From Kitasatospora sp. NBC_01246 (GTDB lineage: Bacteria; Actinomycetota; Actinomycetes; Streptomycetales; Streptomycetaceae): a stretch of 64,000 nucleotides of DNA. Every line of letters begins with the position of its first letter. The first letter of the stretch is position 1. The notes under the pieces are model-generated. The model had not been told where the DNA came from and did no database searches. It saw only the letters and a program-made list of their open reading frames with translations. The translations under genes were made by a program, and so were the position numbers. The DNA lies in contig NZ_CP108484.1 of the NCBI RefSeq assembly GCF_036226505.1, forward strand, positions 7,969,501 through 8,033,500, written 5' to 3'. This document shows positions 2,967 to 9,531 of the stretch, piece by piece.

Positions 2967-3926
2967 TCACCAGGCGTGCGGCACCCGTTCCAGGACGCCT
3001 CCGGCGAAGAGGTCGTAGAGCGGCAGGGTCTCCAGGTGCACATAGCCGATGTGGCAGTCGCAGACCGGCAACGGGCAGGGCCGGGAGCGCAGTTGGCGCC
3101 GGTACGAGCCGTCGTAGAGGTTGCCCAGAACGCCCCGGACGAAGTGGCAGCGGCGGACGGTGCCGTCGCCGTCCACCGAGAGCACGGACTCCCCGGTGCG
3201 GCAGGGGCGGCCGGCGCTGGGGTGGGGGTGCCGGCTGTAGCCGAAGTGCGGGTCGAGCGCCGTCCAGTCGGCGGCCTCGGCGTCGCTGTAGGTGAGCCCC
3301 TCGGCGGCGTTGATCCAGAGGTAGACCGCCGGGTCCAGCGCGGCGCGGAGCCGGCGGGCCTCCGCGAGGTGCCCGGGTTGGCCGACCACGCCGACGCTGT
3401 ACCGCACACCGAGCGCGTCGAGCTCGCGGCACTTGGCGAGGAACCGCCGGTGGTCGACCTGTCCGGGGTGGTACGTCACCCAGAGGGCCAGCGTGTCGGG
3501 GTCGGCCTCGGCGAGCCAGCCGGTTCGGCAGCTGAGGTTGGTCTGGATCGCCACCCGGCGCACGTGCGGCAGCCGGCTCAGCTCGACCAGCGCCCGCCGG
3601 TACCAGGACCGCACCAGGCCCTCGCCCCAAGGCGTGAAGAGCACGGACAGCGTGTCGCCGCTACCGGCCCGTCCGGCGGCCCAGCCGGTGAACCGCTCCA
3701 GCGCCGCCCGGTCGGCCCGCAACTGCTCCGGCGTGTCACGCCGCTTGGCGAACGGGCAGTACGGGCAGTCGTAGTCGCAGGAGGACAGCGGGCCCCGGTA
3801 GAGCAGGGTCAGGTCGACCCCGCCGTCGTCCGGCGCGGGCCGGGAGGCCGCCGAGGGTACGAGGTCGGAGCCGGGCCGGGCGTCGCCGGTGGCCGGCCGG
3901 GGCGCGGGCATGCCGAGGAAGGTCAT
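2967..3926 (-). CDS. STM4011-family radical SAM protein
   Basis: 319 residues. After an Ala/Pro-rich leader, the radical SAM cluster motif CX3CX2C is visible at C50, C54, C57 (CDYDCPYC), which would bind the [4Fe-4S] cluster that cleaves S-adenosylmethionine. Further Cys residues occur near the C terminus (CRTG, CHFVRG, CPLPVCDCH) and may bind a second cluster or metal. The architecture and neighbours match the family named after Salmonella STM4011, whose reaction is not known. The start at 3926 overlaps the STM4012-like stop by 4 nt (ATGA), so the two should be translationally coupled. It is the last gene of a four-gene overlapping run. Assignment rests on order and motifs, not on a search. 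Confidence 0.87.
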   Translation of the reverse strand: MTFLGMPAPRPATGDARPGSDLVPSAASRPAPDDGGVDLTLLYRGPLSSCDYDCPYCPFAKRRDTPEQLRADRAALERFTGWAAGRAGSGDTLSVLFTPWGEGLVRSWYRRALVELSRLPHVRRVAIQTNLSCRTGWLAEADPDTLALWVTYHPGQVDHRRFLAKCRELDALGVRYSVGVVGQPGHLAEARRLRAALDPAVYLWINAAEGLTYSDAEAADWTALDPHFGYSRHPHPSAGRPCRTGESVLSVDGDGTVRRCHFVRGVLGNLYDGSYRRQLRSRPCPLPVCDCHIGYVHLETLPLYDLFAGGVLERVPHAW

Positions 3927-5257
3927 TTCGCCTCGTACTCGGCCATCAGCCGGTGGACCTCGGGCGAGAACAGCATCGGACCGGCCGCGTCCGAGTGCGC
4001 CAGCCCCTCCGGCGAGAGCATCAGGCGCAGCTCGTCCTGCGCCAGCCAGCCCCGGGCCTCGAACGCGGCCAGCTCGGCCGGGAAGTCCTCGATGGGCGCG
4101 CTGCCGAAGCGGGCGCGGTAGTCCGCCAGCGGCATGCCCTCGGCCTGGAGCAGCGACTGGACGAGGTGCCGCCGGCGGGCCTCCTCCGGCGTCATGTACC
4201 GGCCGACCTCGGCGTGCCGGAAGTCGGTGGTGGCCACGTAGTCGTCGATGATGCCGCGCACCTCGGTGGCGTTCACCGCGTAGTCGAAGGAGTAGTGCAG
4301 CCGCGAGGTGTAGGAGCGGGCCCCGCAGCCGAGGCCGACCATGCCGTCGGTCTGGCAGGCGTACTCGCCGCTCCCGGCCTGCGGGGAGGCGGCGCGGCGG
4401 AACATCCGCATCGACACCTGCTGGTAGCCCCGGGCGAGCAGGTGGTCCCGGCCGGACCGGTAGAGCGCGAGCCGGCGGGCGTCCCAGGCGGCCGGGCTCT
4501 CCTGCTCGCCGCGCCGGGCCAGGCCGGTCAGCGGCCGGACGTACAGCGGGTAGAGGTACAGCTCCTCGGGCTCCCAGGCCAGCGCGGCGTCCAGCGAGCG
4601 CAGCCAGCCGGTCTCGGTCTGGCCGTCGATGCCGTAGATGAGGTCGATGTTGAGGACGGGGAACCCGGCGGCGCGGATCCGCCCCAGGGCGGCCTCGACC
4701 TCCGCGCGCTTCTGCGGGCGGACGGCGGAGCGGGCCTCCTCGTCGAGGAACGACTGCACGCCCAGGCTCAGCCGGGTGGCGCCGCGTGCGGCCAGCACCT
4801 CCAGGCGGTCGGCCGTGGCGGTGGCGGGGGAGGCCTCGACGGAGAGCGGGACCGCCCGCAGGTCGACGCCCGTCCGCCGCTCGGCGATGTCGCAGAGCCG
4901 CTCCAGCTCGCCGGCGGTGAGGTAGGTGGGCGTGCCGCCGCCGAACGCCGCCAGCGCGAACCGGGCGCCGTCGTCCAGGGCCTCGCGGACGGTGGCGGCC
5001 TGGCGGTCGAGCGCGTCCAGGTAGGCGGTGGTCAGCCCTTCGGGGCTGCCGATCCGGGTGAACAGGTTGCAGAAGCCGCAGCGGACCTCGCAGAAGGGGA
5101 TGTGCAGGTAGAGCGAGAGCGCGTGCTGCGGCTCGCCGGCCCACAGCTCGCGCAGCGCGGGACGCTCCGGCAGCCGCCGGTAGGCGGTCTTGTGCGGGTA
5201 GGCGTAGACGTACGACCGGTAGGGCGAATCGGTCGTCGGGGCCGCGGCCGTGGTCAT
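3923..5257 (-). CDS. STM4012-family radical SAM protein (HemN-like)
   Basis: 444 residues resembling oxygen-independent coproporphyrinogen oxidase relatives: LYLHIPFC with CX3CX2C at C56, C60 and C63, then FGGGTPTYLT, and RLSLGVQSF further on. HemN-like proteins include haem enzymes, chaperones and methyltransferases, so HemN activity should not be assumed. The combination with STM4011-, STM4013- and STM4014-like neighbours is what points to STM4012. The ATG at 5257 overlaps the upstream stop (ATGA), and its own stop overlaps the next start in the same way. A radical reaction on a product shared with the other enzymes of the cluster is the simplest inference; the substrate is unknown. Confidence 0.9.
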   Translation of the reverse strand: MTTAAAPTTDSPYRSYVYAYPHKTAYRRLPERPALRELWAGEPQHALSLYLHIPFCEVRCGFCNLFTRIGSPEGLTTAYLDALDRQAATVREALDDGARFALAAFGGGTPTYLTAGELERLCDIAERRTGVDLRAVPLSVEASPATATADRLEVLAARGATRLSLGVQSFLDEEARSAVRPQKRAEVEAALGRIRAAGFPVLNIDLIYGIDGQTETGWLRSLDAALAWEPEELYLYPLYVRPLTGLARRGEQESPAAWDARRLALYRSGRDHLLARGYQQVSMRMFRRAASPQAGSGEYACQTDGMVGLGCGARSYTSRLHYSFDYAVNATEVRGIIDDYVATTDFRHAEVGRYMTPEEARRRHLVQSLLQAEGMPLADYRARFGSAPIEDFPAELAAFEARGWLAQDELRLMLSPEGLAHSDAAGPMLFSPEVHRLMAEYEAK

Positions 5258-8486: not shown

Positions 8487-8577
8487 ACGGTCCCCTGTGC
8501 TGCGTGCGCTGCCGGTGAGCGGCAGGTGGTGAGTGGTGGGCGGCGAGCGGTGAAGGTGTGGGCGGGGCGGTGCCCGG

Positions 8578-9531
8578 TTATTCGGCGACCGCGACGTAGC
8601 GCCACCGGTCGTCCGGGCTCCCGGCCTCGGAGAGGTCGACGGCCACCTCGGGCAGGGCCGCCCGGAGCCGTTCCTGGAGCGCGTCGGTGAGGTAGTGGTG
8701 GTGCAGGTCGAGGGCCCGCAGATGGGTGAGCGGCTGGCCCTCCAGCAGGGCGGTGGCGCCCTGGTCGGTCAGGACGCCCATCGAGAGGTTGAGCGAGTCG
8801 AGCCGGGCGACGACCGGGGCGTGCGCGACGGCGGCGGCGATCTCGTCCTGGATCTCGCTGTTCTGCAGGCCGAGGTGGCGCAGCGCCGGGAACCGGGCGC
8901 CGTCGAGGAAGGGCGCCAGGTCGTCGAGGGAGGAGTCGCCGCCGTAGTTCTCGACCCCGAGCCAGAACTCCAGCCGCTCCAGCGCGGGGAAGTCGCTGGA
9001 CGCGACCGCCCGCAGCACCGCGGCGGGCAGACCGCCCGACTCGAACCGCAGGGCCTTCAGGTGCTCGTGACGCAGCGCCTGGAGGGCGATCCCGTCGTCC
9101 TCGACCATGGAGCCCGCGGCGCCGCGCACCACCAGCTCGTCGAGCAGCGGGTACGTCGTCAGCACCGGCGTCACGTCGACCATGTTGATCCAGGAGATCT
9201 CGTTCTCCTCGTACGTGATGTCGCCGATGAACAGGGCGCGCAGGGCCGGCAGCCGGTCGGCGGCGGCGAGGATCGCGGCCAGCGGCCCGGTGAAGCTCTC
9301 CGGCCCGTCGGAGGACCACTCGCCGACCACCACGGCGGTGACCCGCTCGGTGTCGACCGCGTCGAGGAACTGCTGCCAGCGCTCGACGAACGACGTCGGC
9401 GAGTCGAACTCGATGCCGACCTTCCAGGCGACCGCCGCCGCCTCGGGCAGGCCGGTGCCGTCCTCGACCGCCTGGACGAAGTCGAGGACCGGGAGGCCGT
9501 GGAACTCTTCGATGTGCTTGCCGACCGTCAT
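8578..9531 (-). CDS. STM4015-family leucine-rich-repeat-like protein, copy B
   Basis: 317 residues, clearly paralogous to the next gene: both share FHGLPV near the start, WLGVxxYGGDS, NSExQDEIAAAVAHAPVVA, LxLSMGVLxDxGAxALLEGQPLTHLRxLDLHHHYL and the terminal YVAVAE. The tandem arrangement (91 bp apart, same strand) points to local duplication followed by divergence. GGAGGA lies 8-13 nt upstream of the ATG at 9531. This is the promoter-proximal gene of the STM4015-STM4011 run and faces a control region with a 13-bp inverted repeat. Function unknown. Confidence 0.86.
   Translation of the reverse strand: MTVGKHIEEFHGLPVLDFVQAVEDGTGLPEAAAVAWKVGIEFDSPTSFVERWQQFLDAVDTERVTAVVVGEWSSDGPESFTGPLAAILAAADRLPALRALFIGDITYEENEISWINMVDVTPVLTTYPLLDELVVRGAAGSMVEDDGIALQALRHEHLKALRFESGGLPAAVLRAVASSDFPALERLEFWLGVENYGGDSSLDDLAPFLDGARFPALRHLGLQNSEIQDEIAAAVAHAPVVARLDSLNLSMGVLTDQGATALLEGQPLTHLRALDLHHHYLTDALQERLRAALPEVAVDLSEAGSPDDRWRYVAVAE

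Follow-up and report, generated by a model that had tools for sequence, protein, structure and literature searches.

A damage-linked modification of leucine-rich-repeat proteins at their C-terminal glutamate as a candidate function of the STM4011-STM4015 operon

We have analyzed a stretch of 64,000 nucleotides from Kitasatospora sp. NBC_01246 (contig NZ_CP108484.1, positions 7,969,501 to 8,033,500; the window from here on) that contains an operon of the STM4011-STM4015 type. Six minus-strand open reading frames (ORFs) located at 2967-9531 code for two copies of STM4015, a leucine-rich-repeat (LRR) protein, and for STM4014 (ATP-grasp ligase), STM4013 (hydrolase), STM4012 and STM4011 (two radical S-adenosylmethionine, SAM, enzymes). 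All five NCBIfam families were found above their curated cut-offs within this single operon (Table 1). The first-pass annotation of this DNA had described six genes on the same strand, four of them joined by ATGA overlaps, and both features are present in the sequence, with three such overlaps coupling STM4014, STM4013, STM4012 and STM4011; the profile searches for each family that it recommended place all six proteins above the cut-offs. It did not mention three features of the locus: a conserved tail at the C-terminus of STM4015, a promoter motif, and a gene pair, sm and DUF6745, that diverges from the operon across a 154-bp intergenic region. The simplest account of the tail, the ligase, the arrayed STM4015 copies and the promoter would be a damage-linked modification of the C-terminus of the LRR protein.

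A full-text search of the open-licence PubMed Central literature gave no function for STM4011-STM4015, in line with the first-pass statement that none was established. The locus tags appear there in two papers, in one table row each (a list of sigma-54 sites and a table of positive selection). The families are known by name, and what we did not find in this literature is a mechanism. The operon had also been called an undescribed system; this stands as far as function is concerned, but NCBIfam has already curated both the families and the name STM4011-STM4015, and the structure of a relative of STM4015 has been solved (PDB 2RA8).

Table 1. Features of the STM4011-STM4015 locus in the window (positions of the 64-kb stretch; NCBIfam cut-offs in brackets)
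Feature	Coordinates	Strand	Basis
STM4015 copy a, LRR protein, 317 aa, tail ..DDRWRYVAVAE	8578..9531	-	NF038076, 370 bits (275)
STM4015 copy b, LRR protein, 313 aa, tail ..DPEDRYVAVAE	7545..8486	-	NF038076, 373 bits (275)
Tail RYVAVAE of copy a; terminal Glu codon 8581-8583, proposed ligase acceptor	8581..8601	-	Tail conservation
Tail RYVAVAE of copy b	7548..7568	-	Tail conservation
STM4014, ATP-grasp ligase, RimK/LysX-like	6282..7529	-	NF038074, 423 bits (175); AlphaFold2 model; residue alignment with RimK
STM4013, hydrolase of the alkaline phosphatase superfamily, probably Thr-nucleophile, (Thr-Ala)n C-terminal extension	5254..6285	-	NF038075, 416 bits (250)
STM4012, radical SAM enzyme, HemN/HutW/NocN-like	3923..5257	-	NF006067, 635 bits (380)
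STM4011, radical SAM enzyme, CxxxCxxC and C-terminal SPASM/twitch-like Cys set	2967..3926	-	NF038073, 402 bits (200)
RecA-NDp-like element toward STM4015 copy a, TTGTCGG-N10-TAGACA, last T of TAnnnT not kept	9564..9586	-	Motif search
RecA-NDp motif toward sm/DUF6745, TTGTCGG-N10-TACGTT, full pattern match	9616..9638	+	Motif search
sm, 108 aa, GExTGHxH .. HEEH .. QREY, divergent partner	9686..10012	+	In 56/63 loci of at least 20 kb
DUF6745 protein, divergent partner, GTG start as listed, putative	10137..11240	+	PF20530, E 3.7e-111

Linkage of the five families

The linkage of the five families is not due to chance. All five were present in 62 out of 63 STM4011-anchored loci of at least 20 kb in genome contigs. 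These 63 belong to a set of 80 loci that were the best of at least 535 confirmed relatives and are therefore not a random sample; all are actinobacterial, and the diversity outside this group rests on plasmid records, 14 of which have STM4015. STM4014 was found in 13 of these 14 plasmids and STM4011 in the same 13, the fourteenth being a Calothrix plasmid. We have also compared by hand 394 Streptomycetaceae genomes, counting the overlaps between the genome tables by eye. STM4015 was matched in 186 of them and STM4011 also in 186, with 176 genomes having both, 10 only STM4015, 10 only STM4011 and 198 neither (Fisher p 4e-85, kinship ignored). The match is weak, below the cut-off, in eight of the ten STM4011-only rows and in two of the ten STM4015-only ones, which leaves two genomes (G507 and G539) with a strong STM4011 and no STM4015, and eight in the opposite situation. 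The first-pass annotation had regarded the families as occurring together in a coherent system, and had named homologues that do not co-occur as the observation that would speak against it. Homologues do co-occur, with few exceptions, on plasmids, in Streptomycetaceae and at the contig loci.

STM4015 was rare in a wider sample of the phylum (6 of 296 genomes). This patchiness, together with its location on several plasmids, indicates that the operon moves as a block, and could be taken as a sign of neighbouring genes that move together without being related in function. However, gene order is kept in organisms as far apart as Salmonella and Paenibacillus on one side and Methylobacterium, Streptomyces and Deinococcus on the other, and only 10 of the 394 Streptomycetaceae genomes have a single strong part, so that this explanation, already disfavoured, seems to us scarcely credible.

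There are variations on the common arrangement. A Bacteroides plasmid carries STM4015, STM4014 and a fusion of STM4011 with a HAD phosphatase; of STM4013 and STM4012 only pieces are seen (ORFs of 82 and 68 codons). This phosphatase is of the Cof type, and in Salmonella it appears as a separate overlapping gene (L011, L013), and could thus be an additional component of the system in these two groups. In one of the genomes with a strong STM4011 and no STM4015 (G539, locus L143), we found STM4011, STM4012, sm and DUF6745, and none of STM4013, STM4014 and STM4015, in a 13-kb stretch. STM4011 is split over several frames in two loci (L119 of G306 and L130 of G392) and there is a frameshifted piece of STM4015 in L031; perhaps the operon is degenerating at some sites, unless the sequences contain errors. 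The Salmonella operon gave no near match in E. coli complete genomes (searched in near mode only). Besides, five records of phage collections (H71-H75, Salmonella and E. coli hosts) contain relatives of STM4015 that cover part or most of its length, in two cases at the very end of the record, possibly as packaged or co-assembled host DNA.

The STM4015 tail and the enzymes of the operon

STM4015 is composed of an LRR body, an acidic linker of variable length and a tail of the approximate form R[YF]xxVxE. The solved relative 2RA8 (Q64V53, Bacteroides fragilis), named only as an uncharacterized protein, matches the family profile A1 with E 1.5e-101, in a match that stops at residue 354 of 362 (..DDYSYPMITE). 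Terminal glutamate (Glu) was found in 13 of 13 aligned STM4015 proteins from Actinomycetota, Deinococcota, Pseudomonadota, Bacillota, Bacteroidota and Cyanobacteriota, as one of 27 invariant columns. The endings are otherwise quite diverse: RYVAVAE in the window, WRYVALGE in Deinococcus, YRSIAVSE in Methylobacterium, WRYPSLTE in Paenibacillus, YMNAMYTE in Salmonella and WYYPMITE in Bacteroides. For a larger count we took closed ORFs with a profile score >80, which gave 175 rows and 165 tails distinct by their last 200 residues: 158 linked to the enzymes in the same locus or genome (counting that of G306, where STM4011 is broken), six orphans and the one from Calothrix. Among the 158, 156 end in Glu, the exceptions being the out-of-frame piece of L031 and a divergent copy in L120. 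The final position is the most conserved of the last 12, as expected for a carboxylate that reacts. Position -6 is tyrosine (Tyr) or phenylalanine (Phe) in 154 of 158, and between positions -25 and -9 the acidic residues amount to 41%, vs 14% in the remainder of the last 200 residues (156 sequences). Both Glu codons are used at the terminal position, and all three stop codons follow it, indicating that the constraint acts on the protein.

Some genomes combine a single STM4011 with seven or eight copies of STM4015, arranged in tandem and also scattered over distant loci. In two of them, with 7 and 8 paralogues, the mean identity of the bodies was 48% and that of the last seven residues 80%, and 15 of 15 copies end in Glu. 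One set of enzymes for many diverged LRR proteins suggests that the latter are substrates rather than enzyme subunits. The pattern is different in the eight genomes that have a full-length STM4015 and lack STM4011 (to the six orphans above, L137 and L138 were added separately; G441 and G641, STM4011-negative with weak STM4015 matches, were left out). Here Glu has been lost by substitution, truncation or an altered end in three (L105, L107, L137) and kept in the other five (5/8 vs 156/158, Fisher p 7e-4, kinship ignored).

The AlphaFold2 model of STM4014 (predicted local distance difference test, pLDDT, 86.1; 51 sequences) had as its top VIA-align matches, where rows within 1 Z count as tied, ArgX:LysW (Z 23.9), LysX (23.9) and LysX/ArgX with LysW-gamma-AAA (23.3), followed by RimK (23.2-22.7), RimK with RpsF (23.1) and ArgX alone (22.1). 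Residues K200, D278, R280, N302, D346 and N362 are invariant in nine STM4014 proteins and have identical counterparts in the alignment with E. coli RimK. All these relatives act on protein tails: LysX joins its substrate to the gamma-carboxyl of the C-terminal Glu of LysW, a protein of 54 residues of which Glu54 is the last (PMC10433800), RimK extends the C-terminus of S6/RpsF (PMC10092738), and the enzymes acting on LysW-type carriers exploit the negative charge of the carrier (PMC9303977). Tail ligation by LysX, ArgX and RimK on one hand, and a conserved terminal Glu in the product of the neighbouring gene on the other, are the core of our argument, from which we infer by analogy that STM4014 acts on STM4015.

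The likeness to LysX/ArgX:LysW extends to the substrate, in which an acidic stretch is followed by a hydrophobic-small-Glu end (EDWGE in LysW, PMC10433800; V[SAG]E in STM4015). In contrast, STM4015 is an LRR protein of ~300 residues and not a small zinc protein like LysW, and radical SAM enzymes and a hydrolase stand here in place of the LysZ/Y/J/K set. With RimK:S6/RpsF, STM4014 shares the fold, most of the ligase residues and, as we propose, a protein C-terminus as substrate, but the protein would be a different one, tailoring enzymes are linked to it, and in STM4014 some 30-35 additional residues precede VEQW and the N-terminal part is longer. Its scores against RimK families are well below the cut-offs (TIGR00768 23.5 bits vs 143.4; Pfam RimK 12.8 vs 21). 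The system would thus work like LysX/LysW or RimK/S6 while belonging to neither, since it lacks defining features of both. A relative of the window's species provides an example of the former type, a LysX-like ligase beside a LysW-like protein that ends EEDWGE (L149), probably a carrier-protein cluster; a true carrier is therefore recognisable when present.

The conservation of the tail could also be due to docking or recognition. The LRR protein would then be an adaptor that gathers the four enzymes or targets them, and the product a small diffusible molecule, which is close to the view of the first-pass annotation. The co-occurrence of the families agrees with this, an ATP-grasp enzyme, two radical SAM enzymes and a phosphatase-like hydrolase would also fit a small-molecule pathway, and five of eight orphans retain Glu. 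Against it stand the final position being the one most conserved, the action of the nearest ligase folds on precisely such C-termini, and the fact that no single transporter or resistance gene recurs beside the operon in the annotated stretches (two stretches were unannotated). We consider docking possible but rather unlikely. The proposal that one free modified product is made is not established, no releasing peptidase having been recognised among the six genes. The earlier suggestion of the LRR protein as a possible carrier, substrate or target agrees with the conserved C-terminal Glu and is made specific by it.

Another ligase that comes to mind is the one of Pup, which is joined through the side chain of its C-terminal Glu (PMC8223512). 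If STM4014 attached STM4015 by the terminal Glu to lysines on other proteins, the LRR protein would be a tag, and the reactive Glu, its [small]-Glu context after an acidic linker and the link to an actinobacterial damage response would all be points in common. However, no PafA- or Dop-like protein was found in family scans of the six operon products and the divergent pair, the ligase fold is a different one, a tag of 300 residues with an LRR body would be unusual, and the radical SAM enzymes would be left without a role. We regard a Pup-like tag as very unlikely.

With respect to the remaining enzymes, C50, C54 and C57 of the radical SAM site and C242, C260, C284, C289 and C291 are invariant in nine STM4011 sequences. 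The C-terminal part of STM4011 matches SkfB, a sactipeptide maturase (6efn, E 5e-4), with no SPASM family hit in NCBIfam and Pfam scans. STM4012 is near HemN (1olt, E 2e-53), the methyltransferase NocN (9p2u, E 8e-32) and HutW, and shares their fold family, but it falls below the equivalog cut-offs of HemN, HemW and HutW and has an Asn after CxxxCxxC, where HemN has CGC. The HemN family is known for propionate decarboxylation. STM4013 matches the Pfam Sulfatase family (E 2e-10) and aligns with the NPP nucleotide pyrophosphatases/phosphodiesterases. Residues D42, T80, H209, D261, H262, H274 and H278 are invariant in 8 sequences, and T80 falls in the region of the NPP nucleophile, so that the nucleophile of STM4013 is probably a threonine. 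The (Thr-Ala)n run of the window's protein (5263-5370, minus strand) is coded by GCCACT/GCCACC hexamers and is lacking in the seven other aligned STM4013.

These enzymes bring to mind the cofactors derived from ribosomally synthesized and post-translationally modified peptides (RiPPs). The SPASM/twitch maturases PqqE and MftC act on PqqA and MftA, and STM4011 may resemble them, as it may SkfB, in its C-terminal Cys set. By analogy, the radical SAM enzymes would here act on the tail, cross-linking or decarboxylating its Tyr/Phe and Glu, and a host peptidase would free a small redox cofactor. The SkfB match, the Tyr or Phe at -6 and the HemN-like STM4012 would be in agreement. On the other hand, the substrate is a folded LRR protein of ~300 residues, no short precursor peptide was recognised, and the tail varies across phyla (Salmonella, Bacteroides), which would be strange if the product were always the same. 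Among short genes, sm alone was seen to recur, unannotated in Salmonella, Paenibacillus and Bacteroides, although no systematic search of unannotated short ORFs was made. Family scans recognised no peptidase among the six operon products. Many tails have a Tyr..Glu pair, which had led us to consider a pyrroloquinoline quinone-like reading, but in 24 of 158 tails position -6 is Phe instead of Tyr; for this reason we have demoted this reading to an alternative, which we think unlikely.

The divergent pair and the promoter motif

DUF6745 and the gene of ~100 residues that we call sm adjoin the operon in Deinococcus, Methylobacterium and Streptomyces (in the window they lie on the opposite strand, at 9686-11240). 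Each of them is present in 56 of the 63 contig loci, and both in 3 of 3 Deinococcus stretches, so the unit delimited by the first-pass annotation was too small. A hand comparison of 150 Streptomycetaceae genomes found DUF6745 in 63 of 79 with STM4015 vs 6 of 71 without (p 6e-20, kinship ignored). Genomes that lack STM4015 may have the pair as well (L122, L124). The GExTGHxH and HEEH stretches of sm are kept in at least 97% of 83 sequences, and their histidines suggest a metal site; sm has no Pfam or NCBIfam hit, and these family libraries give no function for it. The DUF6745 model is good (pLDDT 91.5), but its best listed PDB match has a Z of only 3.4 and allows no conclusion on fold or function, and we found no function for it in the open-licence PubMed Central literature. 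Both proteins match phage-protein families of no known function (phrog_27831 and phrog_31813). An anti-phage defence system found no support: for the eight proteins of operon and pair, PADLOC gave a single weak hit (PDC-M51A, 16.9 bits, residues 156-240 of P0005) and none for the other seven.

Two divergent elements of the RecA-NDp type, the RecA-independent damage promoter with consensus tTGTCRgtg-8 nt-TannnT (PMC5656591), lie in the 154 bp that separate sm from STM4015. The one directed to sm/DUF6745 fits the consensus save at the less conserved gtg, and is the sole match to the full pattern in the window (0.00 expected). The one directed to STM4015 departs at gtg and also lacks the last T. 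No other TTGTCRG-N10-TA sites are found in the 64 kb. There are 29 full sites in the whole 8.9-Mb genome and 0 for the reversed pattern. The same was apparent when other loci were examined (58 regions, 57 from the 80 loci plus the window). Toward sm/DUF6745, TTGTCRG-N10-TANNNT was present in 50 of 58 vs 1 match in 1.14 Mb of flanks, and toward STM4015 the shortened TTGTCRG-N10-TA in 30 of 58 vs 4 matches in the same flanks. In 19 further loci the shortened motif preceded STM4015 in 12, while only 1 of 17 regions upstream of distal and orphan copies had it (L107). The pair would be co-regulated with the operon.

The window's genome gives a context for this motif. A gene was called at 27 of the 28 other sites, and 20 of the downstream proteins were scanned; seven of the 20 belong to replication or repair (RecA, UvrB, PolA, PcrA, DnaX, SbcD and a protein of the uracil-DNA-glycosylase superfamily), indicating that the motif marks damage-response genes in this genome. 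Our counts agree with a study of S. coelicolor in which RecA-NDp promoters were found upstream of an ultraviolet-inducible gene and its orthologues (PMC5087735). It is probable that the operon is induced by DNA damage in the Streptomycetaceae. A second, independent hint tying the family to DNA damage is the N-terminal WGR domain of the Bacteroides STM4015 (E 6e-18), which in PARP proteins serves to recognise DNA breaks. Four other loci of the window's genome have WGR, DUF4132, DUF7824 and VWA-like genes, each following a RecA-NDp motif (L158, L175, L181, L182), and a WGR/DUF4132/VWA group may belong to the damage regulon; the VWA-like protein is just below the Pfam cut-off, and distant blastn gave no match for the WGR gene of L158.

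A proposed damage-linked modification

We propose a damage-induced system in which STM4014 would ligate an amine to the terminal Glu of STM4015, and the radical SAM enzymes and the hydrolase would tailor the adduct, a proposal to which we give an even chance. STM4015 (with WGR and LRR parts in Bacteroides) would be the macromolecular substrate and the scaffold, with its acidic linker presenting the C-terminal [hydrophobic]-[small]-Glu. STM4014, of the LysX/RimK type, would activate a carboxylate of the terminal Glu and join it to an amine, most likely an amino acid. Afterwards STM4011 (SPASM/twitch-like) and STM4012 (HemN/class-C-like), acting in an order and by a chemistry that we can only conjecture, would tailor the attached group or the tail itself, and STM4013 would remove a phospho group or a similar one. 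Target specificity would come from the LRR body, of which up to eight diverged copies accompany one set of enzymes, and the shared tail would be the feature that the enzymes recognise. As no peptidase was recognised among the operon products, the added group would probably remain on the LRR protein. A changed tail is predicted by this proposal and also by the RiPP-like and Pup-like alternatives, and is not predicted by docking.

Several observations weigh against this proposal. The chemical steps of the model are conjectural. The lead of LysX/RimK over DcsG (Z 21.8) and glutathione synthetase (21.7) is of only ~1-2 Z; the best PDB match of a nine-row STM4014 profile was biotin carboxylase (5.5e-5), ahead of LysX (1e-4), and a 51-row actinobacterial profile matched no PDB chain at 0.01. 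The motif GSWGR, by which LysX/ArgX read the tail of LysW (PMC10433800), was found in 0 of 9 STM4014, all nine having GS[SG]A[SG]G, and in each of the 3 LysX-like controls looked at, taken from six loci. Besides, the hinge Glu is one position off that of RimK. Glu is retained in five of the eight orphans, and in the Calothrix copy with no STM4014 match on the same plasmid, and a docking role would likewise conserve the tail. With respect to induction, the full RecA-NDp motif toward STM4015 was present in 0 of 58 loci, where only the shortened form appears, and according to a study of S. venezuelae the M. smegmatis PafBC motif is apparently not conserved in that species (PMC9380542). A search for LexA and RDRM (radiation/desiccation response motif) boxes gave no convincing hit upstream of seven non-actinobacterial loci. 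A perfect box of alphaproteobacterial type in Bacteroides and hits with one mismatch in two Deinococcus regions were taken as chance, no control having been run.

If the proposal holds, this would be a new class of protein modification at a C-terminal Glu involving radical chemistry, with LRR proteins as scaffolds instead of small carriers, tied to the RecA-independent damage response of actinobacteria. A long-standing operon mystery becomes directly testable: the terminal Glu is one exact group of atoms, the ligase a reaction that can be assayed, and the promoter motif points to a condition, DNA damage. Going further, in a conjugation system induced by DNA damage, LRR proteins (WGR-LRR in Bacteroides) with divergent recognition surfaces and a tail in common might be charged at the C-terminal Glu by the ATP-grasp ligase, the adduct matured by the two radical SAM enzymes to a reactive or cofactor-like group, and the whole delivered to DNA lesions or damaged proteins. 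We put this forward as a speculation that is improbable as it stands; if true, a protein would here carry a radical-SAM cofactor or tag without belonging to any carrier family known so far.

Other genes of the window deserve a mention. Adjoining the DUF6745 gene are a MepB-like gene (11293-11862, plus strand) and two mutually divergent ones, NmrA-like (11919-12851, minus) and an HxlR-type regulator (12920-13333, plus). Further away, a PAP2 phosphatase is fused to a diacylglycerol-kinase catalytic domain (13901-15382, minus), and on the other side of the operon a single gene (100-2187, plus) unusually pairs an N-terminal domain of the TnsA-like endonuclease type with a sigma-70 region 4 domain.

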